From Nonomuraea gerenzanensis (lineage in GTDB: Bacteria > Actinomycetota > Actinomycetes > Streptosporangiales > Streptosporangiaceae), in assembly GCF_020215645.1 (NCBI RefSeq), contig NZ_CP084058.1:5146001-5210000 (forward strand): 64,000 nucleotides of DNA, written 5' to 3'. Below, in pieces: positions 12,150 to 32,252 of this stretch. Position 1 is the first letter of the stretch, and the number at the start of each line of letters is the position of its first letter. Below the pieces are notes generated by a model that had not been told where the DNA came from, ran no database searches, and saw nothing but the letters and a program-made list of their open reading frames with translations. The translations under genes were made by a program, and so were the position numbers.

Positions 12150-12192
12150 GCATCTCCTGACGTGCCACGCAATCACGCACGCCAGGAGATGC
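12150..12192. promoter_or_regulatory. Shared operator, inverted repeat (best copy)
   Basis: Two 16-bp arms, GCATCTCCTGACGTGC at 12150-12165 and its inverted near-copy at 12177-12192 (one mismatch), are separated by 11 bp. The site lies between the divergent monooxygenase genes 10888-12090 and 12258-13439, so a bound dimeric regulator could control both. The same half site recurs in at least four other divergent regions (18089, 21700, 26937, 32200). Confidence 0.75.
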
Positions 12193-12257
12193 GCACGTCA
12201 GCGTCCGGATGGGACGTTCAGGTGGGCAGTTCCTCGACTGACGTCTGGGAGGACATC

Positions 12258-13439
12258 GTGTTGGTGACCGATGCTCCGGTGCGGGAAGACCTGGTTCACC
12301 GCGCCTCGGAGATCGTGCCTGTTCTGCGCGGGCACGCGGCATGGGCTGAGGAGAACCGCAGGCTCCACGAGGAGTCGATAGCAGCAATGGCCGACGCGGG
12401 CGTCTTCAGGCTGCGGACGCCGCGCCGCTACGGCGGCCACGAGGCGGACACCAGGACGCTGGTCGAGGTCGCCACCGAGCTGGGCAGGGCGGACGGCTCG
12501 ACCGGCTGGGTCGCCTCCGTCTACTGGATCCCGACCTGGATGGCCTGCCACTTCCCCGAGGCGGTCCAGGACGAGGTGTTCGCCACGCCGGACGTGCGCA
12601 TCTGCGGCACGCTCAGCCCGACCGCCATGGCGGCGCGTACGGACGGCGGCATCGTCGTCAACGGCAAGTGGGGGTTCGTCAGCGGCGCGCACCACAGCCA
12701 CTGGCAGGAGATCGTGGCCGTCATCCTCAGCGACGACGCGCCGCCCGAGCCGATCATGGCGCTGGTCCCGATGTCGGACCTGATCGTGATCGACGACTGG
12801 CACACCTCGGGCCTGCGCGGCACCGGCAGCGTGAGCACGGTGGCGCAGGACCTGTTCGTCCCCGCCGAGCGTGTCATGCCGCTCGGCGCGATCCTGGAGG
12901 GCGCGCACGCCGACGGCGCCAGCGCCGGCTCGGCGATCTACCGGCCGCCGCTGCTGCCCGTCGCCTCCGCCTCGTCCGTCGGCACCGTGCTCGGCCTGGC
13001 CAGGGCCGCCCGCGAGGTCTTCTTCGAGCGGCTGCCCCAGCGGAAGATCACCTACACCGGGTACGAGAGCCAGAGCGCCGCGCCCCTGACCCACCTTCAG
13101 GTCGCCGAGTCCACGTTCAAGATCGACCAGGCCGAGTTCCACGCCTGCCGCCTGGCCGCGACCGTGGACGGCAAGGGCGAGCAGAGCGCCACGTGGAGCG
13201 TCGAGGAGCGGGTGCGCGCCCGCGCCGACCTGGGCGCCGTGTGCCGGCTCGGCAAGGAGGCGGTGGACATCCTGGCCACCGCGAGCGGCGGCTCGTCCAT
13301 CTATAGCGACGTGCCGATCCAGCGGATCACGCGCGACGTCCACGCGGTCAACCAGCACGCGCTCATGCACCCGAACACCAACGCCGAGCTGTACGGGCGC
13401 ATCCTGTGCGGCCTCGAGCCCGACACGCTCTACATCTGA
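12258..13439 (+). CDS. Group D flavin-dependent monooxygenase (second copy)
   Basis: A 393-aa acyl-CoA dehydrogenase-fold hydroxylase. [32 protein letters not shown] (SxGW motif), [13 protein letters not shown] and [10 protein letters not shown] correspond position by position to landmarks in the divergent neighbour, though the two are only moderately similar. GTG 12258 is preferred because GGAGG lies 5 bp upstream. Family knowledge: these enzymes use FADH2 or FMNH2 from a reductase to hydroxylate phenols or polyketides. The gene's last 34 bp and the next 10 bp are duplicated in tandem after the stop (13405-13492). Confidence 0.85.
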
Positions 13440-13492
13440 ACACGCCAGTGTGCGGCCTCGAGCCCGACACGCTCCACATCTGAACACGCCAG
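13405..13492 (+). repeat. 44-bp tandem duplication at a gene end
   Basis: 13405-13448 and 13449-13492 are identical except for one base (tac versus cac in the second copy). The first copy encodes the last codons and stop of the 12258-13439 monooxygenase; the second copy is a non-coding duplicate up to the next gene's ribosome site. Confidence 0.9.
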
Positions 13493-13503
13493 GAGGAGAC
13501 ACC

Positions 13504-13908
13504 ATGACCACCGCACCCGCACACGCCCCCGACCAGGCCGCTGTGGCGGCACTGCCACAGCGCGTGATCGAGGCGTGGGCCGCGCACGACGCCGACGCCT
13601 TCGCCGCGGTCTTCACCGAGGACGGGTCGATGATCCTGCCCGGCCAGTACCGCAAGGGCCGCGAGGAGATCCGCGGCTTCATGACCGCCGCCTTCGCCGG
13701 CCCCTACAAGGGCACCCGGGTCACCGGCACGCCCATCGACGTGCGCTTCTTCAACGACGACTGCGGCGTGCTGATCACCCAGGGCGGCGTGCTCGCCCCG
13801 GGCGAGAGCGAGGTCTCCGCCGAGCGGGCCGTGCGCGCGTCCTGGCTCGTCGTGCGGCAGGACGGGCAGTGGCGGCTGGCCGCCTACCAGAACAGCCCGC
13901 GTGACTGA
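13504..13908 (+). CDS. SgcJ/EcaC-type SnoaL-like protein
   Basis: A 134-aa protein of the SnoaL-like/NTF2 fold in the SgcJ/EcaC group. Landmarks are [28 protein letters not shown] near residues 15-42, YRKGREEI, and the C-terminal [21 protein letters not shown]. Homologues are regular members of nine-membered enediyne clusters, where genetic work links them to an early step with the PKSE product; a precise reaction is not established here. ATG 13504 has an AGGAGGAGA site. Its stop overlaps the GTG start of the next FAD monooxygenase by 8 bp, indicating coupling. Confidence 0.85.
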
Positions 13909-15274
13909 GATGGCCGGCCTCGTCGCGGACCGCGCGGTGGTGCTGGGCGGCGGCATGGCGGGCCTGCTGGCGGCCCGCGTGCTGTCCGAGCACTACGCCG
14001 AGGTCCTGGTGATCGACAGGGACACTCTGACGGGGGCGAGCGGCCCGCGCAGGGGCGTCCCGCACGGCTGCCACGCGCACGCCCTGCTCGCCCGCGGCCA
14101 GCAGATACTCGACGAGCTGTTCCCCGGCCTGACCAGGCAGCTCGTCGAGGCCGGGGTGCCCGCCGGCGACATGGCCACCCGGCTGCGCTGGTACTTCAAC
14201 GGCCGCCGGCTGCGGCAGGCGCCCAGCGGCCTGGTCAGCGTGTCGGCCACCCGACCCGTGCTGGAGGAGCAGGTCAGGATCAGGGTGGCGGCCCTGGAGA
14301 ACGTGCGCTTCCTGGAGCGGACCGACATCCTCGGCCCCACGTCGGCCGGCGCCCGCATCACGGGCGTGCGGGTACGGCACAGCGACGGGCAGGAGGAGCA
14401 CCTGGCCTCCGACCTGCTCATCGACGCGACCGGCCGGGGTTCGCGCACGCCCGCGTGGCTGCAGGAGCTCGGGTACGAGCGGCCGGACGAGGACCGGGTG
14501 AAGATCGGCCTGGCCTACACCACCCGCCACTTCCGGCTGCGGTCGGACCCGTACGGGGACGATCTGTCGATCAACCCGGTGGCCTCCCCGGCCAACCCGC
14601 GGGGCGCCTTCTTCCCCAAGCTGCCCGGCGACATGAGCATGCTCTCGCTCACCGGCATACTCGGCGACCACCCGCCGGCCGACTACGACGGCTTCCTGGC
14701 GTTCGCCAAGTCCCTGCCCGTGCCGGACATCTACGAGGCGATCCGCGACGCCGAGCCGCTGGACGAGGGGGCCACCTTCACCTTCCCGGCCAGCGTGCGG
14801 CGCCGCTACGAGCGGCTGCCCGGCTTCCCCGGCGGGCTGCTGGTGCTCGGCGACGGCGCGTGCAGCTTCAACCCCGTGTACGGCCAGGGCATGACCGTGG
14901 CCGCCATGGAGTCCATGATCCTGCGCGACCACCTGAGGCGGGGCGGGGAGCCCCGGTGGCAGGCGTTCTTCAAGGACATCTCGCGCGTCATCGACGTGCC
15001 CTGGGACATCTCCGCGGGCGCCGACCTGGCCTTCCCCGGCGTGCGCGGGCCGCGCACGCTGAAGGTGCGGCTCGGCAACGCCTACATGGGACGGCTGCAC
15101 GCCGCGGCGGCCCGCGACGGCGCGGTCACGGCGGCGTTCATGCGGGTGGCCGGGCTCGTCGATCCGCCGCAGGCGCTCATGCGGCCCGGGCTGATGCTGC
15201 GCGTGCTGGCCAACGGCGGCAGGCACACGACGGCGGAGGAGGCGGCGCAGCCGCTGCCGGTGCTGCGGGGCTGA
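13901..15274 (+). CDS. FAD-dependent monooxygenase (aromatic hydroxylase type)
   Basis: A 457-aa flavoprotein. It opens with the dinucleotide motif [20 protein letters not shown] (GxGxxG, residues about 13-32) followed by VIDRDTL. Further landmarks are [10 protein letters not shown], and [27 protein letters not shown], the GD..P..G.G motif near residue 310 that binds FAD ribityl. This branch includes epoxidising and hydroxylating tailoring enzymes. The start is GTG 13901 (coupled to the SgcJ-like gene) or ATG 13910. It probably oxidises the warhead precursor, possibly creating the epoxide opened by the neighbouring hydrolase (inference). Confidence 0.85.
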
Positions 15275-16495: not shown

Positions 16496-18031
16496 TCAGA
16501 GGCTTTCTGTCTGTCGTAACCCGGCGAACGAGGACAGGTCGGGCACCGTCCAGCCGTCCAGGTCGTACTCGCTGAGGCACTGCTCGGCGAGCGCCGCGTA
16601 CTCCTTGAGCCGGCCGGAGGCCATCTGGCCGAACAGCAGCTCGATCCTGGTGTTCTCGTGGTTGCCGGCGTAGTTGCGCTCGTACAGCTCGTGCCGGCCG
16701 CCGAACTCCGAGCCGACGGCGTCCCACAGCAGCTTCATCACCTTGACCCGCTCCTCGGCCCCGGACCCGTCCGAGCCCCGCAGGTACTTGTCCAGGTAGG
16801 GGCGGATGTCGGGGTTCTTGAAGTCGGCCGCGCCCGAGTTGACGTAGATGAGGCCGCTGGCGACGTCCTGAAGGATGATCTCCCTGATCCGGGGGTAGCC
16901 GATCTGGGTGAACCAGCGGTAGGCCATGCCGTACTCGGGGTTCGGCAGCAGCGCGCCGTTCTTCCAGGTCACGGGGTTGCGTGCGGCGGCGTCCGACAGC
17001 GACCAGAACAGGTTGCGCCAGGCCAGCACCTCGCCGACCCGGGTCTGCACGCCGCGGAAGTCCTTGGTGCCGGTGATCTCCAGCGCGCGCAGCAGCAGCC
17101 CCGCCAGGAACTCCAGCTTGACCGCCAGCCGGGTGCAGCCGTGGAAGGTGAAGCGCTCGATGAAGCCGGAGCTGCCGGTGAAGAGCTGCACCTTGCCCAG
17201 GTCGCCGTAGATGAACACGTTCTCCCAGGGGATGAGCACCTGGTCCAGGACGAGGATGCTGTCGTTCTCGTCCAGCCGCGAGGACAGCGGGTAGTCGAAG
17301 GGGCTGCCGGTCAGCGCGGCGGCCGCCGTGTAGGAGGGGCGGCAGATCAGCTTCAGCCCGGGCGCGTCCATGGGCACCGTCGCCACCAGGGCGAACTCCC
17401 GCTTCTTGACCGGCAGGCCGTAGTGGGCCAGGAAGTTGTAGTGCGTCAGCGCCGAGCCCGTGGCGACCACCTTGGCCCCGCTGACCACCAGCCCGGCGTC
17501 GGTCTCGCGCTCGACGTGCACGTACACGTCGCCGACCTGGTCGGGCGGCAGGTTGCGGTCCACCGGCGGGTGCACGATCGCGTGGTTCCAGTACAGGACC
17601 CGCTCCTGCGACTCGCGGTACCAGCGGCGGGCGTTGTCGGCGAAGGGCGCGTAGAAGTCCGCGTTGGCGCCCAGCGTGCCGAGGAAGGAGGCCTTGTAGT
17701 CGGGGCTGCGGCCCATCCAGCCGTAGCTCATCCTGGCCCAGGTCGCGATGGCCCGCTGGTCGGCCACCAGGTCCTCCACGCTGCGCGGCGTGGTGAAGAA
17801 GTGGTGCGTGTAGCCCTCGCCGCCGCTGTCGGTGGGGCAGGTGAGCTGGTCGCGGGTGGCCGGGTCGTGCAGGGCGTCGTACAGCCTGGCCGTCATCCGC
17901 ACCGGGTTGTGGAAGGCGGGGTGTTCGGTGACGTCCTTGACGCGGTCGCCGTAGAGGTAGATCTCGCGGGTGTCGCGCAGGCTCTCGACGTACTCGCTGC
18001 CGGTCATCGGGCGCGTCGCGGGCATCGGCAT
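16496..18031 (-). CDS. 4-hydroxyphenylacetate 3-monooxygenase (HpaB/SgcC-like)
   Basis: A 511-aa oxygenase component of the HpaB family. [32 protein letters not shown] is the standard opening; [13 protein letters not shown], the flavin/substrate loop with [16 protein letters not shown], and [11 protein letters not shown] are conserved. SgcC, its C-1027 counterpart, hydroxylates the 3-position of a carrier-bound chloro-beta-tyrosine with FADH2 from a reductase. Here the substrate could be the PCP-bound hydroxyaryl acid from the 33544-35316 A-PCP protein (inference). ATG 18031 is chosen for GGAG 7 bp upstream; the longer frame to 18421 runs across the operator and is unlikely to be coding. Confidence 0.92.
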
Positions 18032-18088
18032 CTCCCTGCTCCAGGCGGCGGTTTCGCCTCTCCAGCCTGGCATCCGAGGTCGTGGCGG

Positions 18089-18104
18089 CCATCTCACGTC
18101 GTGC
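18089..18104. promoter_or_regulatory. Shared operator half site
   Basis: CCATCTCACGTCGTGC, followed by GCTGTT as at 32216-32221, lies between the divergent HpaB-like and O-methyltransferase genes. A weaker direct copy (CATCCGAGGTCGTGG) begins 19 bp to the left at 18071. No inverted second arm is evident. Confidence 0.6.
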
Positions 18105-18257
18105 GCTGTTGGGCGCTTCGAGCCCGCCGCCTCGCCTTTGGTGGCGGGGGCTGCGCTGTGCGGCGGGGCCTTCCGCTGGGCGGCGGCACCTTGACCAGGA
18201 CCCTGGCCGGCACTCTGGAAGGTGCAGGGCCGGACGGGCCGGTGTGACGATGGCCGC

Positions 18258-19250
18258 GTGAGCGAGCATCGGCTGTGGGCGCTGGCCCATCTGGGAACTC
18301 CGATGGCCCTCCGGGTCGCCGCGACACTGAGGATCGCCGACCGGCTGGCCAAGGGACCGAGCACCGGCGAAGACCTGGCCGGCGCAGTGGGCGCAGACCC
18401 CGGCGCGCTGGAACGACTCATGCGCTACCTGGCTGCCAGAGGCGTCTTCGGCAGAGACCCGTCAGGGGCCTACACCCTGACCCCCTTGGGCGAGGAACTG
18501 CGCGAGGACCATCCGGCCGGCATGCGCGCCATGCTCGACCTCGAAGGCTGGGAGGGACGGGCCGAGCTGTCGTTCGCGCACCTCCTGCACAGCGTGCGCA
18601 CGGGCGAGGCGGCCTTCCCCCACCAGTTCGGCCACTCCTTCTGGGACGACCTGGCCGCCGACCCGGCACGCGCCGCCGCCTTCGACGCCCGCATGGCCGC
18701 CGAGATGCCCGCCAGAGCGCCCGCCATCGTGGCCGGCTACGACTGGGGCACGCTCAGCCACCTCGTCGATGTCGGCGGCGGCAACGGCTCCCTGCTCATC
18801 GCCCTGCTCACCGCCTTCCCCACCCTCCACGGCACCGTGCTCGACCAGCCCGAGACCGCGCGCACCGCCCAGGCGGCACTGGAGTCGGCCGGCCTGTCCG
18901 AACGCGGCCGCGCCGTCGGCGGCAGCTTCTTCGACCCACTGCCGGCCGGCCACGACGGCTACCTGCTGTCGTGGATCCTGCACGACTGGAGCGACGACGA
19001 CGCCCGCGTCATCCTGGGACGTTGCGCCGAGGCGGTACGGCCAGGCGGGTCGGTGTTCGTGGTCGAGGACTTCGGCGCCGACGGGGAGTCGCCGCGTACA
19101 GGGATGGACCTGCGGATGCTCGTCTACTACGGCGGGCGGGAGCGCGGCATCGCCGATCTGCGGCCACTGGCCCATGACGTCGGCCTGGAGGTCGCCTCCG
19201 TGCATCCTGCGGCCAACCTGAGGATCGTCCGTCTGGTGGCGTGCTCATGA
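18258..19250 (+). CDS. SAM-dependent O-methyltransferase
   Basis: A 330-aa class I methyltransferase of the plant COMT/TcmN-type family: an N-terminal dimerisation/winged-helix part ([23 protein letters not shown]...[11 protein letters not shown]) and a C-terminal Rossmann domain with [12 protein letters not shown] (SAM site), LDQPE, and [14 protein letters not shown] with the His-Asp of the catalytic region. GTG 18258 is preferred to an in-frame GTG at 18222. Its stop overlaps the P450 start (ATGA). A P450/O-methyltransferase pair parallels SgcD3/SgcD4, which hydroxylate and methylate the benzoxazolinate aryl ring in C-1027, so methylation of a hydroxyanthranilate-type acid is a reasonable guess. 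Confidence 0.88.
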
Positions 19251-20772: not shown

Positions 20773-21645
20773 TCAACTCACCGCCACAGCCCCCTTACGC
20801 CGCTGCCAAGCCTCATGCGCCCCCCGCACCTTCTCCCACAACATCTCCCGATCCCTGCCATTCACATCCCCCAGATGCAACCCGAACACCGAGCTGAGCG
20901 CCTCGAACCACTCTCCCCGGCTCCCCAGCTCCACCTCACTGACCCCCGCCCCACTGACCCGCCGCAACATGCACCCCACCAACGCATCCGCCCCCGCCCC
21001 ATCCCGCCGCAACACGACAGCGGCCCGCACCAGCCGGGACTCAGGCGAGGTGCACAGATACGGATGCCACTCCACGAAGTCCACCGCCGAAGCAGGCTCG
21101 GTCTCCATGTCCAGCCCCGCGATGGACCCCCGCGGATCGTGATCGAAGCGCCACCCGCCAGGCTCCACGGAGGACGCCGACAGCCGGAACTCGAACGGCC
21201 CCTGCCGGTAGCGGCCCTCGCGCAGCGGCAGCGGCTCCAGGAGCCCGTCGCCCAGCCCGATGTCGACCAGCCACGGCTGCCCCTCCATCCTGACGGTCAG
21301 GGCCAGGTGCGGGGCGAAGGAGACGCCGCTCGCCGGAGCGCGCCTGCCGGCCTGGACGCCGGCGCGGTGCCAGGTCACGTCGTACCCCAGCGCCGTCAGC
21401 AGCGTGGCGAACGCGCCGTTGAGCTGGACGCAGTAGCCGCCGCGCCCGCGCAGGATCCGGTCGATCGACTCGCGCGGGTCCAGGGTGATCCGCCGGCCGA
21501 GCTGGACCTCCAGCGTCTCGTACGGCACGCGCTCGACGTGCGCGCGATGCAGGGCGCGCAGCGCGTCGAGGGACGGCTCGCCGGGGTCGCCGATCTCCAG
21601 CCGGTCGAGGTAGGTGCTCAGGTCGCGGTCATGGGGTCGCCGCAT
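20773..21645 (-). CDS. Arylamine N-acetyltransferase-family acyltransferase
   Basis: A 290-aa NAT-family enzyme. The Cys-His-Asp triad is visible: RGRGGYCVQLNGAF (Cys near residue 72), SFAPHLAL (His near 111) and WLVDIGLGD (Asp near 127). ATG 21645 has GGAGG upstream; a start at 21675 is possible. NATs acylate aryl amines from acyl-CoA; relatives such as RifF act as amide synthases. With kynureninase and tryptophan dioxygenase nearby, N-acylation of an anthranilate, or coupling of an anthranilyl unit to another acyl group, is an attractive role (inference). It is transcribed away from the FkbM methyltransferase, with a shared operator between them. Confidence 0.88.
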   Translation of the reverse strand: MRRPHDRDLSTYLDRLEIGDPGEPSLDALRALHRAHVERVPYETLEVQLGRRITLDPRESIDRILRGRGGYCVQLNGAFATLLTALGYDVTWHRAGVQAGRRAPASGVSFAPHLALTVRMEGQPWLVDIGLGDGLLEPLPLREGRYRQGPFEFRLSASSVEPGGWRFDHDPRGSIAGLDMETEPASAVDFVEWHPYLCTSPESRLVRAAVVLRRDGAGADALVGCMLRRVSGAGVSEVELGSRGEWFEALSSVFGLHLGDVNGRDREMLWEKVRGAHEAWQRRKGAVAVS

Positions 21646-21699
21646 GGCTCCTCCACTCAGGTCGAGTTCCTCCATCGTGCGCGGGTCGGCAGCCCCGCC

Positions 21700-21743
21700 G
21701 CATCTCGCGGAGTGCTGCCCGTACCGCGCAATACGCAAGATGC
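21700..21743. promoter_or_regulatory. Shared operator, inverted repeat
   Basis: Left arm GCATCTCGCGGAGTGC (21700-21715) and inverted right arm (read in reverse, GCATCTTGCGTATTGC, 21728-21743) match at 13 of 16 positions with a 12-bp spacer. It lies between the divergent NAT-like and FkbM genes. The geometry is almost the same as at 12150-12192. Confidence 0.7.
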
Positions 21744-21808
21744 GGCGGGCTCCGGGCGTGATCGACGATGACACTGGCCTGAGCCATCCACCGGGAGGAG
21801 ACGAGCAG

Positions 21809-22483
21809 ATGCGCAACCAGGTAATCGTGCGGGAGCAGGTGACTGCCCGGTGGGAGGAGCACCTGCCCGGCTTGCTCGGCCGGCTGGAGGTGCCGGCCCA
21901 GGGCGTGGTGCAGGTGGGTGCGCACCGGGGGCAGGAGGTGGCGGCGTTCACGGCGTGCGGGTTCCGGCGCCTGGTGATGATGGAGCCCAACCTTGACCAC
22001 CTGTCGGCGCTGCGCGAGCAGTTGCGCGTGCACCACCTGGCCGCCGGGCTGCCCGAGCCCGCCGACGGTCACCTGCCGCGAGTGGTGGTGGCCGCCGCGG
22101 CGGGCCAGAGGCGCGGCCGGGCCACGCTGAACATCACCCCCTATGACAAGCAGTCCAGCATGCTGGAGCCGTTGCAGCCGATGGCCGTCGTGCGCCAGGT
22201 GAGCGTGCCGGTCGTGCCCGTCAGCGAGGTGCAGCACGGTTGCAACGTGCTGGTGGTGGACGCCCAGGGCGCCGAGCTGGACGTCCTGGCGGGCACCGAT
22301 CTGGACAGGCTGCGCCTGGCGGTGATCGAGGGCAGCGTGTCGGCCCGCTACAACGGCGGCTCGACGCTGGACAGCATCGCCGCCCACATGACCGCGCACG
22401 GCTGGCGTTCTGTGGCCTCGTGGGCGCACGAGCGTCCCGGCGTGGTGGACGTGGCCTGGCTGGCGCCCGAGCCGGCGCGCTGA
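21809..22483 (+). CDS. FkbM-family methyltransferase
   Basis: A 224-aa SAM-dependent methyltransferase of the FkbM type. VVQVGAHRGQEVAAFTACGF is the SAM motif I (V..GA..G.E), followed by MMEPNLDHLSALRE; the later ITPYDKQSSMLEPL and VLVVDAQGAELDVLAG (D..G.E..VL.G) are family marks. FkbM relatives O-methylate hydroxyls on polyketides or sugars. ATG 21809 has GGAGG upstream. The stop overlaps the enoyl-CoA hydratase start (TGATG). It may methylate an enol or hydroxyl in the side-chain pathway it leads. Confidence 0.82.
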   Translation: MRNQVIVREQVTARWEEHLPGLLGRLEVPAQGVVQVGAHRGQEVAAFTACGFRRLVMMEPNLDHLSALREQLRVHHLAAGLPEPADGHLPRVVVAAAAGQRRGRATLNITPYDKQSSMLEPLQPMAVVRQVSVPVVPVSEVQHGCNVLVVDAQGAELDVLAGTDLDRLRLAVIEGSVSARYNGGSTLDSIAAHMTAHGWRSVASWAHERPGVVDVAWLAPEPAR

Positions 22484-23239: not shown

Positions 23240-24865
23240 ATGAACGGCAAGGCGCGCAACGCGGCGATGACCCCGGCGATGAGCAAGCTGCGCGGCAGGG
23301 CGAACGGCAAGGTGTGCGACGCGGCGCAGGCCGTGGCGCTCATCGGCGACGGCCAGGCGGTCGCGAGCACGGGCGTCATCGGCTGGCTCACGCCCGACGC
23401 CCTGCTGGCCGCGCTGGCCGAGCGCTACCGGACCGGCGGCACGCCCCGCGACCTCACCTTCTACTTCCCGTGCGCCACCGGCGACGCCGTGGGGATCCGC
23501 GGCATGGACCACGTGGCGGTGAAGGGCCTGATGCGCCGGATCGTGTCGGGCTCGTTCATCAACCCCCGCCACCCGGAGACGGGCGCGCGGCCCGCGCTGA
23601 CCGAGCTGATCCAGAACGACCTCGTCGAGGCCTACACCTGGCCGATGGGCGCCACCATGCACTGGCTGCGCGAGGTGGCCAGGCGCGGCCCCGGCTACCT
23701 GACGCGCGTCGGCCTCGGCACGTACGCCGATCCCAGGCACGGCGGCGGCAAGTTCACCCGCCTGGCCACCGACGAGCTGGTCGAGCTGGTCGAGCTGGGC
23801 GGCCGGGAGTACCTGTGGTACCCGACGTGGCCGCTGGACGTGGGCCTGATCCGGGCCGGCAGCGCCGACGCGGACGGCAACCTGGCGTTCGAGGACCAGC
23901 CGCTGCTGTCGAGCGCGCTGGCGATCGCCATGGCGGTCAAGGCGTGCGGCGGCACCGTGATCGCGCAGGTGTCGCGGCTGACCGGGCCGGGGGAGCGGCC
24001 GGCCCGCGAGGTGCGCGTCCCCGGCGCGCTCGTGGACCGGGTCGTCGTGGTCCCCGACGCGCCGACCGGCACCGGCGTGCGCGACGACCCCGGCTACCTG
24101 GGGCACGTGCCCGGCGCGGTGGCGCGCGTGCCCCGGCTGCCGGCCGGGCCGGACAAGGTCATCGCGCGCCGCGTGGCGCGGGAGGTGCGCAAGGGAGAGA
24201 CCTCGATCTTCGGGTTCGGCGCCTCGTCCGACGCCGTGCTCGTCATGGCGGAGGACGGCGCCCTGGACGGGGAGAGCCTGGACGACTACCTGTTCACCAC
24301 CGAGCACGGCTCGTTCGGCGGCATCGTGATGAGCGGCTGGCAGTTCTCCGCGAACTACTCGCCGCGCGCGCTGCTCGATGGGCCCGCCCAGTTCGACTTC
24401 ATCGACGGGGGCGGCTGCCCGTTCGCGGCGCTGGCCTTCGCGCAGCTGGACGCGCTCGGCCGGGTGAACGTCAGCCGCTTCGGCGCGGCCAACCCCGGCG
24501 CCGGCGGGTTCGTGGACATCGCGCACGGCGCCACCCGCCTGGTCTTCGCCGGCACGATGACCACCGACGGGCTCAGGGCCGACTGTACGGCCGGCCGGCT
24601 GCGGATCCTGGAGGAGGGGCGGGTGACCAAGTTCGTGCCGCGCGTGGACCACGTGACCTACCGGCTGGGCGAGGGGGTCGCGGCCGGGCAGAGCGCCCTG
24701 GTCGTCACCGAGCGCGCCGTCTTCGACGTCACCGCGGACGGGCTGGTGCTGACCGAGGTCGCCCCGGGCGTGGACGTCGAGCGCGACGTGCTGGCCCACA
24801 TCGGCTTCCCGGTCAGGCGGGCACCCGGCGTGACGCTGATGGACGCGAGCCTGTTCCGGCCGTAG
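23240..24865 (+). CDS. Family I CoA-transferase (propionate/acetate CoA-transferase type)
   Basis: A 541-aa protein with fused alpha and beta halves of family I CoA-transferases. The N-terminal half has DGQAVASTGVIGWLTPDALLAAL; the beta half has GASSDAVLVM and FTTEHGSFGG, in which the Glu is the expected nucleophile forming the acyl-CoA intermediate. It would activate a free acid by CoA exchange, replacing an ATP-dependent ligase. A candidate acid is the anthranilate or its small acyl partner. The gene overlaps the convergent kynureninase gene by 53 bp at the 3' end. Confidence 0.85.
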   Translation: MNGKARNAAMTPAMSKLRGRANGKVCDAAQAVALIGDGQAVASTGVIGWLTPDALLAALAERYRTGGTPRDLTFYFPCATGDAVGIRGMDHVAVKGLMRRIVSGSFINPRHPETGARPALTELIQNDLVEAYTWPMGATMHWLREVARRGPGYLTRVGLGTYADPRHGGGKFTRLATDELVELVELGGREYLWYPTWPLDVGLIRAGSADADGNLAFEDQPLLSSALAIAMAVKACGGTVIAQVSRLTGPGERPAREVRVPGALVDRVVVVPDAPTGTGVRDDPGYLGHVPGAVARVPRLPAGPDKVIARRVAREVRKGETSIFGFGASSDAVLVMAEDGALDGESLDDYLFTTEHGSFGGIVMSGWQFSANYSPRALLDGPAQFDFIDGGGCPFAALAFAQLDALGRVNVSRFGAANPGAGGFVDIAHGATRLVFAGTMTTDGLRADCTAGRLRILEEGRVTKFVPRVDHVTYRLGEGVAAGQSALVVTERAVFDVTADGLVLTEVAPGVDVERDVLAHIGFPVRRAPGVTLMDASLFRP

Positions 24866-26054
24866 CCGGGCGCCCGCCGGTCGCGCGCACCAGGTCGCGC
24901 AGCTCCTCCGCCAGCAGCTCCACGGCCTGTTCGAGCTGCTCGTCCGACAGGTACGGCGCGGGCCCGAGCCGCAGCCGGTCCCCCCGGCTGTCCGCCTGCA
25001 CCCCCCGCGCCGCCAGCCCGGCACGCAGCCGCTCCGCGTACGGCGACCGCAGCGCCAGGAACCCGCCGAAGTCCTCGGGCCGCCCCGTCCTGTCCCTGCT
25101 GACCAGGTGCTCCGGCACGTCCAGGGCGTCGAAGCGCGCGGCCAGCAGCCCGACCTGCCGCAGCGAGACCCCCCGCAGGAACCGCGGCGTCAGCCCCTGC
25201 TCGGCGAAGAAGTCGAAGACCCGCGCGGCCCGGTAGTGGCTGGTCGGATCGTAGGTGGCGCCCGCGAACCGCTGCGCGCCCGCGGGGTAGGCGACGCCGG
25301 GAGGCTGCTCGCCGGAAAGCTCACCGAACTCCGCGAACCACCCGGTGATCACCGGCCGCAGCCGGTCGGCGTGGCCGGGCAGGCGCAGGAAACAGTTGCC
25401 CTCGCCGAGCTGCAGGTACTTGTACCCGCCGCCCACCACCCACGCCTCCTCGATGCCCGCCGTGCCGAACGGCACCACGCCGAGCGCGTGATAGGCGTCG
25501 ACCAGCAGCTCCGCCCCGTGCCGCAGGCAGGCGCCGGCCAGCGCGTCCAGCCCCGGCACGATCCTGGCGTCCTCGAACAGCACCGCGGAGACCAGCACCG
25601 CCGCCGTCCGGCCGTCCACCGCGGCGGACAGCCGCGCGGCGAGCGTGTCGGCGGGCCGCGCGGGCAGCACGGTCACCTCCACCCCCTCCTCGGCCAGCCT
25701 GCCGAGCTGCCTGCGCAGCGTGTGGAACTCGCCGTCGGAGGTGACCAGCCTGGGCCGGCGCCGCAGGTCGAGCGCCGACAGGAAGCGCAGCACCAGGTCG
25801 TGGGTGCTGGCGCCGAGGGCCAGCTCGGCGTGCGGGTCGCCGAGGAAGCCGCGCAGCCCGTCCCTGACCCGGTCGGCCACCTTGAACGCGCCCGCCCACT
25901 TGTCGTCGGCGTCCCTGGCGGCGTCCAGGAACGCGTCGATCTGACCGGCCAGCGCCACGTCCGGCCAGGCCTGGTGCGAGTGGCCGGTGAGCAGCAGCCG
26001 CTCGGAGACGCGGAAGCGGGAGTAGTGCGGCGCCAGCCGCGCGGACTGGTCCAT
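24813..26054 (-). CDS. kynU: Kynureninase-like PLP enzyme
   Basis: A 413-aa fold-type I PLP enzyme. FRVSERLLLTGHSHQAWPDVA, LGASTHDLVLRFLSAL, VTSDGEFHTLRRQL, VDAYHALGVVPF and VVGGGYKYLQLGEGNCFLRL (Lys of the Schiff base in GYKYL) are close to the kynureninase pattern of the short bacterial branch. It would cleave kynurenine or 3-hydroxykynurenine to (3-hydroxy)anthranilate and alanine. The start ATG 26054 overlaps the tryptophan dioxygenase stop (TGATG), tying the two steps together. The intermediate formamidase is not recognisable in the window. Confidence 0.85.
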   Translation of the reverse strand: MDQSARLAPHYSRFRVSERLLLTGHSHQAWPDVALAGQIDAFLDAARDADDKWAGAFKVADRVRDGLRGFLGDPHAELALGASTHDLVLRFLSALDLRRRPRLVTSDGEFHTLRRQLGRLAEEGVEVTVLPARPADTLAARLSAAVDGRTAAVLVSAVLFEDARIVPGLDALAGACLRHGAELLVDAYHALGVVPFGTAGIEEAWVVGGGYKYLQLGEGNCFLRLPGHADRLRPVITGWFAEFGELSGEQPPGVAYPAGAQRFAGATYDPTSHYRAARVFDFFAEQGLTPRFLRGVSLRQVGLLAARFDALDVPEHLVSRDRTGRPEDFGGFLALRSPYAERLRAGLAARGVQADSRGDRLRLGPAPYLSDEQLEQAVELLAEELRDLVRATGGRPATAGTGSRPSASRRVPA

Positions 26055-26839
26055 CACATCGCGCTCCTGATCGCCCACAGGTCGGGGAAGCAGGGCGCCA
26101 GCGAGCTCCTGAGGTAGCCGCCGCCGCTGGAGCCGGCGGTGCCGGGCCTGGCGCCGATCGTCCGCTCCACCATCTTCAGGTGCCGGTAGCGCCACTCCTG
26201 GAAGCTCTCGTCCAGGTCCACCATGCGCTCGCAGAGCTGCGCGGCGCCCGTGTCGTCCTGGTAGACGCGCAGCAGCAGGCTCTGCAGGTCCTCGGAGGGT
26301 TCGAGGTGCTCGGTCACGTCCCGGTGCAGCTTGTCCTTCGGCACCTCGTAGCCGCGCAGGTAGAGGTAGGTGAGCAGGGAGTCGTACAGCGACGGCCTGG
26401 CCAGCGCGGCCGCGATCCTGTCGCGGGCCGGGCTGCCCTCCGGCTGGCCGTGCAGGACGCGCTCGTCGCGCCGCCCCAGCACCACCTCGATCTCCCTGAA
26501 CTGCGCCGACTGGAAGCCGCTGCTGGTGCCGAGCTGGCCGCGGAAGGCGGAGAACTGGCCGGGCGTCATCGTCTCCAGCACGTCCATCTGCGCCGCGGCC
26601 AGCTTGACGATGCGCAGCAGCCGGTGCAGGGTCCGCATGGCGTGCGCGGTGAACCCGCCCGCCAGCTCCAGCTGCAGCTCCGCCATCTCGTGCAACGTCT
26701 GCTTGAACCACAGCTCGTAAACCTGGTGGACGACGATGAACAACGTCTCGTCATGGCTGTCGGAAACCGGCCGCTGCGCCCCGAGAATCTCGTCGAGCGC
26801 CAGGTACGAGGAATACGTGAGAACAGTTTTTTCCGTCAT
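26054..26839 (-). CDS. kynA: Tryptophan 2,3-dioxygenase
   Basis: A 261-aa haem dioxygenase with the full family pattern: LTYSSYLALDEILGAQRP, DETLFIVVHQVYELWFKQTLHEM (His and the H..YELWFK motif), MTPGQFSAFRGQLGTSSGFQSAQFREIE, and the C-terminal WRYRHLKMVERTIGARPGTAGSSGGGYL carrying the proximal His. It oxidises L-tryptophan to N-formylkynurenine. Placed directly upstream of kynureninase inside the cluster, it marks a dedicated tryptophan route to an anthranilate-type building block rather than general catabolism. Confidence 0.95.
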   Translation of the reverse strand: MTEKTVLTYSSYLALDEILGAQRPVSDSHDETLFIVVHQVYELWFKQTLHEMAELQLELAGGFTAHAMRTLHRLLRIVKLAAAQMDVLETMTPGQFSAFRGQLGTSSGFQSAQFREIEVVLGRRDERVLHGQPEGSPARDRIAAALARPSLYDSLLTYLYLRGYEVPKDKLHRDVTEHLEPSEDLQSLLLRVYQDDTGAAQLCERMVDLDESFQEWRYRHLKMVERTIGARPGTAGSSGGGYLRSSLAPCFPDLWAIRSAM

Positions 26840-26936: not shown

Positions 26937-26952
26937 GCACGCCACGAGATGC
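26937..26952 (-). promoter_or_regulatory. Shared operator half site
   Basis: On the minus strand GCATCTCGTGGCGTGC, a perfect consensus match, lies between the divergent tryptophan dioxygenase and acyltransferase genes. An inverted second arm is not convincing (only CCATGTCGGCC next to it). Confidence 0.65.
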
Positions 26953-27021
26953 GGTGGGCAAGAGCGCGGCGTGACTATGGCGCCAGGTCCCATCAGCGAA
27001 CGGACTGCGAGGAAGCATGCC

Positions 27022-28308
27022 ATGACATCACCGGAAATCATCAGCAATGGCGGTGGCGGCGGAAAACGCGCGCCACGGCTCGACGGCTTGCGCGGATATC
27101 TGGCACTCGGCGTGATCGTCGTGCACGTCGCCTTCGCCGCCGGCGTCATCGGCTTCTACGACAAACCCGCCGACACCATCTGGGCCGTCCTGGTCCAGGG
27201 GTTCAACGTGCTGCTGCCGCCCTTCTTCGTGATGTCCGGACTGCTGCTGTACCGGCCGTTCGCCAGGGCGACCATCGTCGGCACGCCCCGCCCGGCCATC
27301 AGGGGCTACCTCATCAAGCGCATGCTGCGCATCCTGCCCGCCTACTGGCTGGTGGCCGTCGCGGCGCTGCTGCTGCTCAACGCCAAGAGCGTGGACGGCA
27401 TCTGGTACGTCCTGAGCCCGCTGCTGCTCATGCACAACTACGTGCCGGGCCCCGAGCTGGGCTACGCGGGCCTCGAACCCACCTGGACCGTCCCCGCCGA
27501 GGTCACCTTCTACCTGGCGCTGCCGATCCTGGCCTGGGTGTTCGACCGGTTCGCCAGGAAGGCCGACACCCCGGGCGGCAAGGCCCGCCGCCTGATCGTG
27601 CCGCTGGCCGTGTTCGTGCTCGTGGGGCTGGCCTGGACGGTCTACACGCACCTGGAGTTCATGGGGCCGTTCCCGTACGAGTACTTCTGGGTGATCGGCT
27701 TCACCGGCTTCCTGGCCATCGGGATGGGGCTGGCGATCCTGTCCGCGTACGCGGAGGCCACCGGCACCACGCCGCGCCTCTACCGCGCGGCGCAGCGCCG
27801 CCCGCTGCTGTTCTGGCTCGGCGCGCTGGTCGTGTACGTGATCAACTGCATCAGGCCGTTCGGCAAGCCCGGCATGGCCGACTACGCCACCGTGCCGGAG
27901 GCGATGGTGGAGATGGTGCTGTTCCTCATCTTCGCGCTGCTCATCATCGCGCCCGTCGTCGTGCCGAACGTGCGCTCGGCGTTCATCGACGCCGTGCTCA
28001 CCAACCGGCCGATGCGCTTCTTCGGGCGCATCTCCTACGGTGTCTACCTGTGGCACTTCGTGCTGCAGTACCTGTGGCTGCAGAACGGCAGCGTCTTCGG
28101 CGCCGCGCCGCTGCCGATGCCGGCCGTGATGGGCAAGGCCGGGTTCTGGGAGCTGCTCGCGGTGGTGCTCGTCGGCACCGTGATCATCGCCACCATCAGC
28201 TACTACCTGGTCGAGCTGCCCGCGATGCGGCTGCGCGAGCGCCTGGTCGCCGGATCCGGGCGGCAGCGGGCCGAGCAGCAGCAGGAAAGGCCCCGCGTTC
28301 CCGCCTGA
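27022..28308 (+). CDS. Membrane acyltransferase (Acyltransferase 3/OafA family)
   Basis: A 428-aa protein with about ten hydrophobic segments. PRLDGLRGYLALGVIVVHVAF holds the conserved R..DGLR...(A/V)..VV..H motif with the catalytic His; LIKRMLRILPAYWLV and GRISYGVYLWHF are further signatures. Such enzymes move acetyl or longer acyl groups onto sugars or other periplasmic/cytoplasmic acceptors. In this cluster it may acylate the sugar or the chromophore. ATG 27022 is preceded by gaggaag; the upstream region contains the shared operator. The C-terminus is polar (RQRAEQQQERPRVPA). Confidence 0.88.
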   Translation: MTSPEIISNGGGGGKRAPRLDGLRGYLALGVIVVHVAFAAGVIGFYDKPADTIWAVLVQGFNVLLPPFFVMSGLLLYRPFARATIVGTPRPAIRGYLIKRMLRILPAYWLVAVAALLLLNAKSVDGIWYVLSPLLLMHNYVPGPELGYAGLEPTWTVPAEVTFYLALPILAWVFDRFARKADTPGGKARRLIVPLAVFVLVGLAWTVYTHLEFMGPFPYEYFWVIGFTGFLAIGMGLAILSAYAEATGTTPRLYRAAQRRPLLFWLGALVVYVINCIRPFGKPGMADYATVPEAMVEMVLFLIFALLIIAPVVVPNVRSAFIDAVLTNRPMRFFGRISYGVYLWHFVLQYLWLQNGSVFGAAPLPMPAVMGKAGFWELLAVVLVGTVIIATISYYLVELPAMRLRERLVAGSGRQRAEQQQERPRVPA

Positions 28309-29348: not shown

Positions 29349-30824
29349 CTAATTGACGATCTCCATCTGGCCCATCATTCCGAGGGCGGAGTGCTCCAGC
29401 ATGTGGCAGTGATAGACGTATCGGCCCAGGTGGGAGCCGATGTCGACCTGTAGGCGAACGGTCTCGCCCGGCTGGATGAGTACGGTGTCCTTCCAGCCCC
29501 CCTCGCCCGGCGGCGGCGCCTTGCCGTCCCGGTCCAGGAGCAGGAAGTGCGACAGGTGGGTGTGGAAGTTGTGCGGGACGCCGAAGCCGGAGCCGCCGAC
29601 GTTCGTGTCGGTGTTGGTGACCTCCCAGATCTCGGTGGTGCCCCGCTTGACCTGCATGTCCACCCTGGCCGGGTCGAACACCTGATCGTTGATCAGCGCC
29701 CTGATGTTGACCGGGTCCAGGCTGAGCACGAGCTTGCGGTCGCGTACGGCCACCGGCGCCGGAGCCAGGGGGCGCAGCAGGGCGGGCACCCGGCTGCGGT
29801 CGGCGGCCTGCCGTACGACGTCGAAGCGCAGCACGGGGCCGGCCACGTCGTTGACCGTCACGTGGCCGCCCAGCGGCACCTTGGCGAAGTCGACCACGAT
29901 GTCGGCGCGCTCGCCCGACGACAGCACCAGCCGGTCCACCGGGACGGGCGCGGGCAGCAGACCGACGTCGGTGGCGATCTGCGTCATCTGCGCGCCGTCG
30001 AGCGTCAGCTCGAAGACCCGGTGGGTGGAGCTGTTGAGCAGGCGGAAGCGGTACTTGCGCGCGGCGACCTCGAAGTAGGGCTGCGCCTTGCCGTTGGCCA
30101 GCAGCGTGGGGCGGTTGTAGGGGTCGGCGGGGTCGAAGATCAGGTTGCCCGCGTCGTCGAGCAGCGCGTCCCGCAGCATGATCGGCACGTCGTAGCCGCC
30201 CGACGGCAGGCCGAGCCGCCGCTCCGCCTCGTCGTCGATCAGGTAGAACCCGTGCAGGCCGCGGTAGACGTTCTCGGCCTCCAGGTGGTGCGCGTGGTCG
30301 TGGTACCACAGCGTGGCGCCCGGCTGGGCGTTCGGGTACAGGTAGGCCCGGCCCGCGCCCGGCGCGATCACGTCCGTCGGGTAGCCGTCGTGCGCGGCGG
30401 CCACCCGCCCGCCGTGCAGGTGCACGTTGGTGTCGTGGCCGAGCTTGTTGTCGAAGGTGATCAGCGTCCTGCGGTTGCGACGCGCGCGGATCGTGGGGCC
30501 GCAGAAGGCGCCGCCGTACGTCAGCACGGGGGTGTTCACCCCCGGCAGGAGCTGCGCCGTCGCCTGCTGGACGGACAGCCGGTAGATGTCGGTGTCGCCG
30601 GTCTGCACCGACGGGACGCGGGTGGCGGGCACCGGCATCCTGACCGAGAAGGGGGTGACGGCGGGTCCCGACCTGACCGCCGGGACGCGGCCGGCGTGGT
30701 CGTGCACGTGCGGGTGGTGCGTGCTCGCGGTCCCGGACGGGGCGAGCTCCGACTGGACGAACGGGGCCAGCGCGGCGCCTCCCGTCAGCCCGCCGAGAAC
30801 GAGTAAGCGCCGTCGGCTCAACAT
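29349..30824 (-). CDS. Multicopper oxidase (bilirubin oxidase/phenoxazinone synthase/CotA type)
   Basis: A 491-aa exported multicopper oxidase. MLSRRRLLVLGGLTGGAALAP is a Tat-type signal peptide. The copper motifs are complete: HLHGG, WYHDHAHH, HNFHTHLSHF and YHCHMLEHSALGMMG, giving one type 1 and a trinuclear centre. The overall layout resembles CotA, bilirubin oxidase and phenoxazinone synthase, enzymes that oxidise phenols, o-aminophenols or tetrapyrroles. With an anthranilate pathway in the cluster, oxidative handling of an aminophenol is possible, as is protection outside the membrane. ATG 30824; a longer frame to 30878 lacks a better ribosome site. Confidence 0.9.
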   Translation of the reverse strand: MLSRRRLLVLGGLTGGAALAPFVQSELAPSGTASTHHPHVHDHAGRVPAVRSGPAVTPFSVRMPVPATRVPSVQTGDTDIYRLSVQQATAQLLPGVNTPVLTYGGAFCGPTIRARRNRRTLITFDNKLGHDTNVHLHGGRVAAAHDGYPTDVIAPGAGRAYLYPNAQPGATLWYHDHAHHLEAENVYRGLHGFYLIDDEAERRLGLPSGGYDVPIMLRDALLDDAGNLIFDPADPYNRPTLLANGKAQPYFEVAARKYRFRLLNSSTHRVFELTLDGAQMTQIATDVGLLPAPVPVDRLVLSSGERADIVVDFAKVPLGGHVTVNDVAGPVLRFDVVRQAADRSRVPALLRPLAPAPVAVRDRKLVLSLDPVNIRALINDQVFDPARVDMQVKRGTTEIWEVTNTDTNVGGSGFGVPHNFHTHLSHFLLLDRDGKAPPPGEGGWKDTVLIQPGETVRLQVDIGSHLGRYVYHCHMLEHSALGMMGQMEIVN

Positions 30825-30890
30825 GGCTGAACTCCTATCGCCAGCTCCGAGCGTGGCATCGCACCCCGGAGCGGTCATCTTCCGTATTGC

Positions 30891-32168
30891 TCACTTGACG
30901 GCCAGCCGCCGCGGCGTGCGGCCGGCGGCGCAGTCGTCGTTGTAGGCGTCGAGCAGGCGCTGCGCCGCGGCCGTCGCCTCGGCCAGCCGCGTGCCCGGGT
31001 CGCCGCCGGCCAGCACGCCGGTCATGGCGCCGGTCATGAGGTCCTGGATCCCGGCGAAGTCGCCCAGGATCGCGCCGAGCGCGGCGGGCGAGCCGTCGGC
31101 CGCGCGCAGCTGGCCGGTGGCGGCCCGGTGGATCGGGTGCCGCTCGAACCAGCCCTCCCGCTCCAGCAGCTCGACCGAGGCGCCGGTGACCGGCAGGAAC
31201 CCGGCGCCGCGGTGCCACTCGGCCACGTTGCGCGCGTCCAGCAGGTACTGCAGGAACGCCAGCGCGCCGTCCGCCTTCTCGCGGGGCAGCCCGTCGGTGA
31301 GCCAGAACGCCTGGCCGGAGACCAGGTGCCCGGCGCGCGCCGCGCCCTCGTTGTACGGCAGCGGGCCGGCCGCCACCTCGAAGCCCGCCTCGGCGCAGGA
31401 TCGCGCGATCATCCCGGCGACGACCGAGGAGGCGACGGTGCAGGCCACCCGCTGCTCGGTGAAGGCCCGCAGGGTGCCGCCCCAGTCCTCCGGCGTCCCG
31501 GTGTCCAGGTAGCGGCCCCGCCGGTGCAGCCGCTGCCACCAGGTGGCGTAGGCCAGCAGCTCCTCGGAGGCCAGTGTCACCTTCTCGGCCCGCCCCGACC
31601 TGCCGTTGTCGTGGTCGGCCAGCAGGCCGCCCTGCCCGGCCACCGCCTGCTGGATCAGCCAGCCGTGGTTGGCCCAGGTCACCGGGCCCGCCTCGGCCAG
31701 CTCGCCCCAGGTCCGCGGCATCGTCGTGAAGCCCGCGGCCTCCAGCATGGCGGTGTTGCCGAGCAGCACCGCCGTGGTGGCCGTCATCGGCGCCGCCACC
31801 AGTTCGCCGGCGTAGGTGTAGTAGCCGCGTACGGCGGGCTCCAGGTCGCCGAGGACGACCCGCTCGCCGAGGATCTCGCCGCGCCCGGCGACGGCCCGCT
31901 CGACGGGTACGAACAGCGGCGCGCCCGACGGCCCCCGCGTGTCCAGGGCCAGCCGGGTCGCGGTGGCGTAGTACTCGGCGAGGTCGGGGGGAGTGCCGCG
32001 GGCGGCGGCCCTGGCCACCTCGGCGGGCAGCTCGCGGAAGCCGTACCCGGTGATGTCGATCCGGTAGCCCGGATGGGCGGCCTCGAAACCGGCGGCCAGC
32101 TTCTTGATCGGATCCAGGTAGCCCGGCAGCGGATGCTCCGCCAGCCAGACGTTGACGACCGTTGTCAT
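30891..32168 (-). CDS. Sugar-binding-protein (family 1 SBP) homologue without signal peptide
   Basis: A 425-aa protein with the fold landmarks of extracellular solute-binding proteins of sugar ABC systems: VVNVWLAEHPLPGYLDPIKKLAAGFEAAHPGYRIDITGY, MTATTAVLLGNTAMLEAAGF, PRTWGELAEA and GHLVSGQAFWLTDGLPREKADGALAFLQYLL. It begins MTTVVNVWLAEH directly in the first beta-strand: no signal peptide, no lipobox Cys, and no ABC permease or ATPase genes nearby. It is probably cytoplasmic and may have been recruited to bind a glycosylated product or intermediate (inference). ATG 32168 is preceded by GAGG. It shares a divergent promoter with the halogenase. Confidence 0.85.
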   Translation of the reverse strand: MTTVVNVWLAEHPLPGYLDPIKKLAAGFEAAHPGYRIDITGYGFRELPAEVARAAARGTPPDLAEYYATATRLALDTRGPSGAPLFVPVERAVAGRGEILGERVVLGDLEPAVRGYYTYAGELVAAPMTATTAVLLGNTAMLEAAGFTTMPRTWGELAEAGPVTWANHGWLIQQAVAGQGGLLADHDNGRSGRAEKVTLASEELLAYATWWQRLHRRGRYLDTGTPEDWGGTLRAFTEQRVACTVASSVVAGMIARSCAEAGFEVAAGPLPYNEGAARAGHLVSGQAFWLTDGLPREKADGALAFLQYLLDARNVAEWHRGAGFLPVTGASVELLEREGWFERHPIHRAATGQLRAADGSPAALGAILGDFAGIQDLMTGAMTGVLAGGDPGTRLAEATAAAQRLLDAYNDDCAAGRTPRRLAVK

Positions 32169-32199
32169 CGCCTCATCATGGACACGGCCCCGCGCCCGC

Positions 32200-32252
32200 A
32201 CATCTCGTGACGTGCGCTGTTCCCCCGGGCCACACAGCAATACAGAGGATGA
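32200..32252. promoter_or_regulatory. Shared operator, inverted repeat with longer spacer
   Basis: Left arm ACATCTCGTGACGTGC (32200-32215) and an inverted, weaker right arm (read in reverse, TCATCCTCTGTATTGC, 32237-32252). The spacer is 21 bp, one helical turn more than at 12150 and 21700, which would keep both arms on the same DNA face. It lies between the binding-protein and halogenase genes. Confidence 0.6.

Follow-up and report, generated by a model that had tools for sequence, protein, structure and literature searches.

The 64,000-nucleotide stretch of Nonomuraea gerenzanensis contig NZ_CP084058.1 analyzed here (positions 5,146,001 to 5,210,000; the window) holds a gene cluster marked by an enediyne-type polyketide synthase (PKSE), and a 16-base motif, GCA-N6-GAGATGC (on the reverse strand, RCATCTYCNGRAWTGC), recurs between its genes. 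This motif is a real, cluster-wide promoter element that occurs far above chance. It is very probably the operator of a cluster-wide class II activator of the AraC family, of the same type as SgcR2 from the Streptomyces globisporus C-1027 cluster, and is common to enediyne clusters of many genera. Sequence comparison points away from the SARP and LAL regulators encoded in the window, which a preliminary description of this DNA had named for binding tests, and toward an AraC-family activator whose gene lies a short way beyond the window as the best candidate.

Sites were located with a promoter model in which an operator of at least 8 bits, written with its GAGATGC block last, is followed by a hexamer xAxxxT starting 20 or 21 nucleotides (nt) after it. 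The weight matrix was trained on intergenic sequence from 13 clusters, with 318 matches among which near-palindromic sites count on both strands, and the general pattern RCATCTYCNGRAWTGC was drawn from it by eye. Counts in these matrix-training clusters are not independent, and those in the held-out loci, the C-1027 plasmid and L290 are. Genes were called with an in-house codon-usage caller, and predicted starts are approximate. In 144 kb of this genome examined around the cluster, the model found 17 matches, all directed at the next gene and 16 of them intergenic; the remaining one, at 80342, overlaps the end of a gene. All 14 matches in the window are intergenic and face the next gene (5,393 intergenic bases), and the 144-kb scan was empty beyond 848-81307. 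For 23 intergenic stretches of the window (5,162 bases), 13 matches were observed against 0.12 expected by first-order resampling of intergenic DNA. Chance and GC bias were rejected on this count, with which permuted matrices agree.

Sites in this window mostly follow a variant with GRCGTGC on the right of the RCATCTYCNGRAWTGC pattern. At most one mismatch to GCATCTCGTGRCGTGC occurs at 6 places in the 12.07-Mb genome, 4 of them inside the window (binomial P 1.2e-8); the other two lie on the same contig, at 1,499,712 and 7,226,915. When up to three mismatches are allowed, there is no genome-wide excess (313 places versus 391 for the reversed pattern), and the motif is therefore local. The idea of a genome-wide operator was rejected on this result and because the general form has no exact match in this genome. 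Beyond this genome, a comparison set of 34 stretches was assembled (18 from 13 variant-motif genomes, 13 from as many PKSE genomes lacking the exact motif, 2 extra, and this genome). The intergenic count of 28 of these stretches was reached by none of 200 column-permuted matrices. Of the six other stretches, two carry one intergenic site each, and four have none: a stray locus of G185, G166, G210 and a split piece of G303 (G-numbers denote members of a set of 345 genomes of the order, surveyed below). Among four close genomes, namely this one and three relatives 97% identical in the PKSE piece used as a query, 13 of 17 target genes have the site in all four. The window's sites, each an operator with its -10-like hexamer, and their targets are listed below by position and direction, together with the main regulator genes and the cluster marker.

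822-863, minus strand: operator GCATTCTGAGAGATGC (848-863) with GATGCT (822-827), 19.4 bits, spacing 21; before the carrier-protein gene 545-829 (PP-binding domain).
7307-7347, plus strand: operator GCACGGGCGGAGATGC (7307-7322) with CACACT (7342-7347), 15.1 bits, spacing 20, in 2 of 4 close genomes; before the thioesterase gene 7356-8123 (PF00975).
8147-8188, plus strand: operator GCACGGTCAGAGATGA (8147-8162) with GATTCT (8183-8188), 15.2 bits, spacing 21, in 4 of 4; before the nucleotidyltransferase gene 8196-9251 (PF00483).
12124-12165, minus strand: operator GCACGTCAGGAGATGC (12150-12165) with GACGCT (12124-12129), 20.1 bits, spacing 21, in 4 of 4; before the flavin monooxygenase-like gene 10888-12009 (HsaA-like, below cut-off).
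12177-12218, plus strand: operator GCACGCCAGGAGATGC (12177-12192) with GACGTT (12213-12218), 18.8 bits, spacing 21, in 4 of 4; before the acyl-CoA-dehydrogenase-like gene called at 12387-13439 (PF08028).
18064-18104, minus strand: weak operator GCACGACGTGAGATGG (18089-18104) with CAGGCT (18064-18069), 10.5 bits, spacing 20, in 4 of 4; before the HpaB-like gene 16496-18031 (TIGR02310, below cut-off).
18210-18251, plus strand: operator GCACTCTGGAAGGTGC (18210-18225) with GACGAT (18246-18251), 16.4 bits, spacing 21, in 4 of 4; before the O-methyltransferase gene 18303-19250 (PF00891).
21674-21715, minus strand: operator GCACTCCGCGAGATGC (21700-21715) with CACGAT (21674-21679), 17.7 bits, spacing 21, in 4 of 4; before the arylamine N-acetyltransferase-like gene 20773-21645 (PF00797).
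21728-21769, plus strand: operator GCAATACGCAAGATGC (21728-21743) with GACGAT (21764-21769), 18.2 bits, spacing 21, in 4 of 4; before the FkbM-type methyltransferase gene 21809-22483 (PF05050).
26937-26978, plus strand: operator GCACGCCACGAGATGC (26937-26952) with GACTAT (26973-26978), 16.7 bits, spacing 21, in 4 of 4; before the acyltransferase gene 27112-28308 (PF01757).
30850-30890, minus strand: operator GCAATACGGAAGATGA (30875-30890) with CACGCT (30850-30855), 19.5 bits, spacing 20, in 4 of 4; before the multicopper-oxidase gene 29349-30707 (PF07732).
32175-32215, minus strand: operator GCACGTCACGAGATGT (32200-32215) with CATGAT (32175-32180), 17.2 bits, spacing 20, in 4 of 4; before the solute-binding-protein gene 30891-32168 (PF13416).
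32237-32278, plus strand: operator GCAATACAGAGGATGA (32237-32252) with GACCCT (32273-32278), 14.4 bits, spacing 21, in 4 of 4; before the halogenase-like gene called at 32411-33532 (halogenase-type matches below cut-off).
52325-52366, plus strand: operator GCATGCGGGAAGTTGC (52325-52340) with GATCGT (52361-52366), 14.5 bits, spacing 21, in 3 of 4; before the small open frame 52374-52580, with the first core genes from 53069.
43542-46466, minus strand: SARP/AfsR-like regulator gene (BTAD and Trans_reg_C domains).
49549-52317, plus strand: LAL-type LuxR regulator gene (AAA_16 and GerE domains).
58090-63810, plus strand: PKSE gene, the cluster marker, its product 62% identical over its length to the polyketide synthase of the C-1027 plasmid.

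Site 848 has counterparts in G172 and G185, and in G163 it is assigned to the neighboring gene. To the right of the window, sites 80342 and 81307 also fit the promoter model, and 81276 is very weak (8.4 bits; not found in relatives). The message of the solute-binding-protein gene is probably leaderless, and a message from the 52325 promoter would likewise start directly at 52374. The open frame there (52374-52580, plus strand) matches the epsilon subunit of acyl-CoA carboxylase (ACC_epsilon) weakly and below the cut-off.

The eight main sites of the preliminary description are all present (12150+, 12177-, 18089+, 21700+, 21728-, 26937-, 32200+ and 32237-, with signs opposite to the promoter directions listed above). 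Site 18089 has 4 mismatches to the consensus used there, and 21728 and 32237 match that consensus weakly, yet score 18.2 and 14.4 bits with the matrix. Its weaker candidates at 848, 7307 and 8147 are supported, as each has a -10-like hexamer at the right distance. A tentative site at 1376 found no support; position 1468, close by, is a better candidate (16.2 bits) and is without xAxxxT at 20 or 21 nt. Overlooked in that description were the sites at 30875, at 52325 and at 18210, the last of which suits the O-methyltransferase gene better, and beyond the window those at 80342 and 81307. The claim that the core PKSE block lacks the motif needs narrowing, given that 52325 precedes the first core genes and that several other clusters, C-1027 among them, carry a strong site before the core PKSE operon. 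The suggestion that a single regulator co-ordinates the cluster has strong support, and the regulon extends beyond tailoring and precursor genes.

The arrangement of the sites is that of a promoter element with a fixed direction. Among non-redundant sites, 161 of 162 could be classified: 110 lie between divergent genes, 51 between genes in tandem and none between convergent genes. Of those between tandem genes, 47 are directed at the gene downstream and 4 point away from it. The hexamer xAxxxT starts 20 to 22 nt after the operator in 132 of 157 gene-facing sites, against 7 to 20 for other windows of three offsets. If this hexamer serves as the -10 element and is numbered -12 to -7, the operator would lie at about -48 to -33, the usual place of a class II activator, which takes over the -35 box. 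The element shows three features of class II activator-dependent promoters: a fixed distance to a -10-like hexamer, predicted overlap with the -35 position, and a single orientation. The sites are directional single operators serving one gene each, and the inverted pairs that had been described as units are two promoters placed back to back.

A fixed distance to a -10-like hexamer would also be seen if GAGATGC were itself the -35 element of an alternative sigma factor of the extracytoplasmic function (ECF) type, acting without an activator. One candidate is an ECF-type sigma gene (67541-67987) that adjoins the AraC-family gene introduced below. This reading is very improbable: a conserved GCA block lies 6 bases further upstream, outside any -35 hexamer, and the spacing of 20-21 exceeds the 16-18 usual between -35 and -10 elements. 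Furthermore, no homologue of the sigma gene was found within the stretches compared from several motif-bearing clusters, such as those of G219, G267, G310 and G156, and none is annotated in the C-1027 cluster.

A reading of the motif as a symmetric dimer site of 7-2-7 form is weakened by the operator's distal half, which is more degenerate than the proximal half on the GAGATGC side. GerE-domain proteins bind 7-2-7 sites, and the form GCATCTC-NN-GAGATGC resembles such sites, so that a GerE-type dimer of the LuxR family could be the reader, either the LAL protein or a TrmB/LuxR-like protein encoded at 75170-76156, right of the window. Both have a GerE domain, and close homologues are present in 49 (LAL) and 43 (TrmB/LuxR) of the 77 surveyed genomes that have both the PKSE and the AraC-family protein. 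A GerE dimer is nonetheless very unlikely. Apart from the asymmetry of the operator, close homologues are missing in 28 (LAL) and 34 (TrmB/LuxR) of these 77 genomes. Six of the 77 (G004, G012, G026, G234, G282 and G305) have 3-6 exact sites each without a close homologue of SARP, LAL or TrmB/LuxR. G320 and G121 have no LAL or TrmB/LuxR match at the cut-offs used, yet carry 4 and 3 sites, and the annotated genes of the C-1027 cluster include no evident protein of this kind. A LAL or TrmB/LuxR orthologue does not accompany the motif everywhere, though more distant GerE proteins may do so.

The same six genomes speak against the SARP protein, which, like LAL, the preliminary description had named for binding tests. 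It is encoded in the cluster. SARPs bind direct heptamer repeats, which are not evident in the motif, and a close SARP homologue is present in 45 of the 77 genomes and missing in 32, so that it does not go wherever the motif goes. There is hardly any likelihood left for SARP in this role. The SARP, LAL and TrmB/LuxR proteins all look dispensable for the motif, although their absences, like those of AraC homologues, are defined by E-value cut-offs.

The regulator that does accompany the motif is an AraC-family protein, and it very probably acts on the operator as its activator. Its gene lies at 66257-67018 on the window's scale (minus strand; L010:2257-3018), 2.3 kb to the right of the window. 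Of the regulator genes in the 144 kb, it alone has a homologue in every one of 13 motif-bearing clusters, within the stretches of DNA that were compared. In the 345-genome survey, a 503-residue PKSE piece served as the query, with cut-offs of E 1e-180 for PKSE and 1e-40 for AraC. Exact sites of the general pattern number 198, spread over 75 genomes, compared to 6 sites for the reversed pattern. Genomes with both PKSE and AraC account for 181 of the 198 sites, and 60 of these 77 genomes have at least one. The 58 PKSE-only genomes hold 5 sites (in G112, G114, G166, G232 and G320). The association with AraC within PKSE genomes has a P of 9e-17, part of which reflects clade structure. The PKSE piece was matched at E 1e-180 or better in 135 of the 345 genomes, a high share; matches reach down to about 58% identity and need not all be enediyne polyketide synthases.

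This distribution also bears on the idea that the sites are bound by a global regulator, for example an AdpA-like AraC protein, whose gene lies in another part of the genome. Such regulators influence many clusters, and AdpA ranks with the closest relatives of solved structure that the AraC-family protein has. The sites are nevertheless concentrated, with 11 exact sites in the 203 genomes with neither PKSE nor AraC versus 181 in the 77 with both, and none in the 144 kb beyond 848-81307. A global regulator is, on these counts, highly unlikely.

The candidate activator has 253 residues. A sequence recorded for Nonomuraea gerenzanensis matches it at 99.6% identity, in line with the window's origin. 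PF12833 and PF00165 match above cut-off within residues 5-96 (two helix-turn-helix units), followed in the structure model of a 91% identical relative (mean predicted local distance difference test score 81) by a low-confidence linker and then a beta-rich domain. The model superposes on AraC-family DNA-binding domains, the listed folds including AdpA, MarA, SoxS, Rob and RamA. Across 30 relatives, down to 48% identity, residues of the two presumed recognition helices stay largely unchanged, which fits the conserved operator. The protein is 47% identical to SgcR2 over 234 residues, and its gene stands beside a P450 gene and the PKSE block here and in the C-1027 cluster alike. By homology and by location in an enediyne cluster, it belongs to the SgcR2 type. 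We propose that this protein binds the directional GCA-N6-GAGATGC site with its two helix-turn-helix units, probably as a monomer. The operator would end 20-21 nt before a degenerate -10 element (xAxxxT), overlapping and replacing the -35 box, and the bound protein would recruit RNA polymerase as a class II activator in the manner of SoxS, Rob and RamA. Each operator would serve one transcription unit, and back-to-back operators would serve a divergent gene pair. As the probable counterpart of SgcR2, it would represent one operator-activator pair that runs enediyne clusters in many actinobacterial genera.

Several observations weigh against this assignment to the AraC-family protein. AraC and PKSE follow the same clade, and their co-occurrence is partly phylogenetic. 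Of seven AraC-positive genomes without a PKSE match, one has an exact site, and 20 kb around G210, such a genome, is without a site. Seventeen of the 77 genomes with both proteins lack the exact general pattern, including this genome with its variant sites. G320 and G121, whose AraC proteins are just 33-36% identical, were counted as AraC-negative, and G303 has AraC, yet the core is nowhere matched exactly in the 100 kb around its PKSE. For the variant, 6 of 20 genomes with the motif (G099, G124, G136, G170, G171 and G225) either have no PKSE or carry it apart from the site, on a different contig or at a distance of 1.7 Mb. In the 144-kb model scan, the AraC, SARP and LAL genes have no operator in front, which for the last two agrees with the preliminary description. 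The operator is partly palindromic, close to 7-2-7, which would suit a symmetric dimer. Lastly, TnmR7, a regulator of the same kind, was insoluble, precluding a gel shift (PMC9464397).

Conservation extends beyond close relatives. An exact search for the variant GCATCTCNTGRCGTGC in the 345 genomes gave 32 sites in 20 genomes, compared to 4 for the reversed pattern. Of these genomes, 17 match the PKSE piece and three do not; in G099, G136 and G171, the variant site lies on a contig other than that of PKSE or 1.7 Mb from it. In more distant clusters (about 80-84% in the PKSE piece), the motif also precedes genes without a counterpart in the window. Named loci were then drawn from an AraC-alignment search as the best 80 of 515 relatives, of which 15 from previously fetched genomes were excluded, leaving 65 held out. 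These gave 117 intergenic and 8 intragenic model matches, against a permuted mean of 0.40 in all. An intergenic site is present in 38 of the 47 loci with any PKSE match and in 14 of the 18 without one. Without the -10 requirement, xAxxxT stands at 20 or 21 nt in 64 of 79 non-redundant held-out sites, against a mean of 3.8 for other pairs of offsets; 43 of the sites are divergent, none is convergent, and of the 32 in tandem regions 29 are directed at the gene that follows. Site-bearing loci include those of Saccharothrix, Amycolatopsis, Actinomadura, Catellatospora, Kitasatospora and Streptomyces, and 40.7 kb of Streptomyces clavuligerus pSCL4 holds six matches, all intergenic.

Plasmid SGLP1 of the C-1027 producer, of which 128 of 167.8 kb were scanned, has 15 intergenic matches of at least 14 bits, 14 of them in the C-1027 cluster (20,000-91,000), against a mean of 0.015 and a maximum of 1 for permuted matrices; one further match of at least 14 bits is intragenic. 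Here the names sgcA1, SgcR1, SgcR2 and SgcR3 were assigned from annotation and gene order. Sites precede a glucose-1-phosphate thymidylyltransferase gene (presumed sgcA1), a halogenase gene, an AMP-binding/HpaB run, an AMP-binding/tyrosine aminomutase pair (presumed sgcC4) and a DUF1702 gene, behind which core genes with PKSE follow on the same strand. The presumed sgcR2, an AraC gene, lies 25 bp behind a StrR-like gene, the same arrangement as reported for sgcR1 and sgcR2 (PMC2657911). Loss of sgcR3 is reported to lower the transcripts of sgcA1 and sgcC4, and SgcR3 to bind the promoter of sgcR1R2 and not the structural promoters tested (PMC2657911). Direct action of SgcR2 on structural promoters would fit a hierarchy from SgcR3 through SgcR1R2 to the structural genes. 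Of SgcR1, SgcR2, the presumed SgcR3 and an HxlR-type protein of this cluster, only SgcR2 has a homologue in the 144 kb. Across 22 clusters, homologues of SgcR2 were found in 20, of SgcR1 and (weakly) the HxlR-type protein in 2 each, and of the presumed SgcR3 in none. On these counts, the StrR-like SgcR1 and the presumed SgcR3 were rejected as common readers.

The cluster of G303 appears to be split or rearranged. Its PKSE, AraC and TrmB/LuxR genes lie about 3.9 Mb from its LAL and SARP genes (G303:C2, 4262955 and 8188657). Elsewhere, LAL and SARP genes are cluster neighbors, and the exact operator sites of G303 are at a third place, contig C3. In the window itself, a tryptophan 2,3-dioxygenase-like gene (24813-26839, minus strand; TIGR03036, below cut-off) adjoins what reads as a kynureninase-like gene, a pair that hints at an aromatic moiety of the product derived from kynurenine. 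Short repeats, of NTWP type and DSPWE, mark two small predicted proteins encoded at 5945-6250 and 46917-47123 (both minus strand), the second between the SARP gene and the genes preceding LAL. They are possibly small repeat peptides or precursors resembling those of ribosomally synthesized and post-translationally modified peptides.

We consider it rather more probable than its opposite that enediyne clusters of differing product types across the Actinomycetota share one SgcR2-type activator and one class II operator before most of their units, and that non-homologous tailoring genes were recruited by gaining the operator. If so, the model of operator plus -10 element would mark the borders of enediyne clusters and their full regulon, even in chromosomally separate pieces, and the operator would help to delimit clusters in genome sequences objectively. 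It also predicts which units are controlled: in C-1027 these include the presumed sgcA1 gene and sgcC4 operon, both reported down in the sgcR3 mutant. An open-access literature search did not find the operator described in print. Regulators of the SgcR2 and TnmR7 kind are reported as positive in the available portions of two papers, which give no target site (PMC8210685, PMC9464397), and the operator with its promoter geometry provides a probe set for them.

Comparison with known systems places the element closest to C-1027, where SgcR2 is likewise an AraC-family regulator in an enediyne cluster with the same operator-promoter element. UcmR7, an SgcR2 homologue 34% identical to it, is kept in several enediyne clusters (PMC8210685), and deletion of TnmR7, a positive regulator, abolished tiancimycin production (PMC9464397). 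Unlike C-1027, the 144 kb examined here hold no SgcR1 or SgcR3 homologue and have SARP, LAL and TrmB/LuxR instead. From the class II activators MarA, SoxS, Rob and RamA the candidate differs in that its helix-turn-helix pair stands at the N terminus, ahead of a beta-rich domain, in its proposed site (GCA-N6-GAGATGC) and in a predicted regulon that amounts to a single biosynthetic cluster. AdpA is a global AraC-type regulator of Streptomyces; unlike its targets, the operator described here is concentrated in enediyne-bearing genomes. In promoters of the LuxR type, the lux box replaces the -35 element, and the present operator, centered near -40, would work alike, but GerE-domain proteins look dispensable for it, and the protein that would take their place is an SgcR2-type activator.

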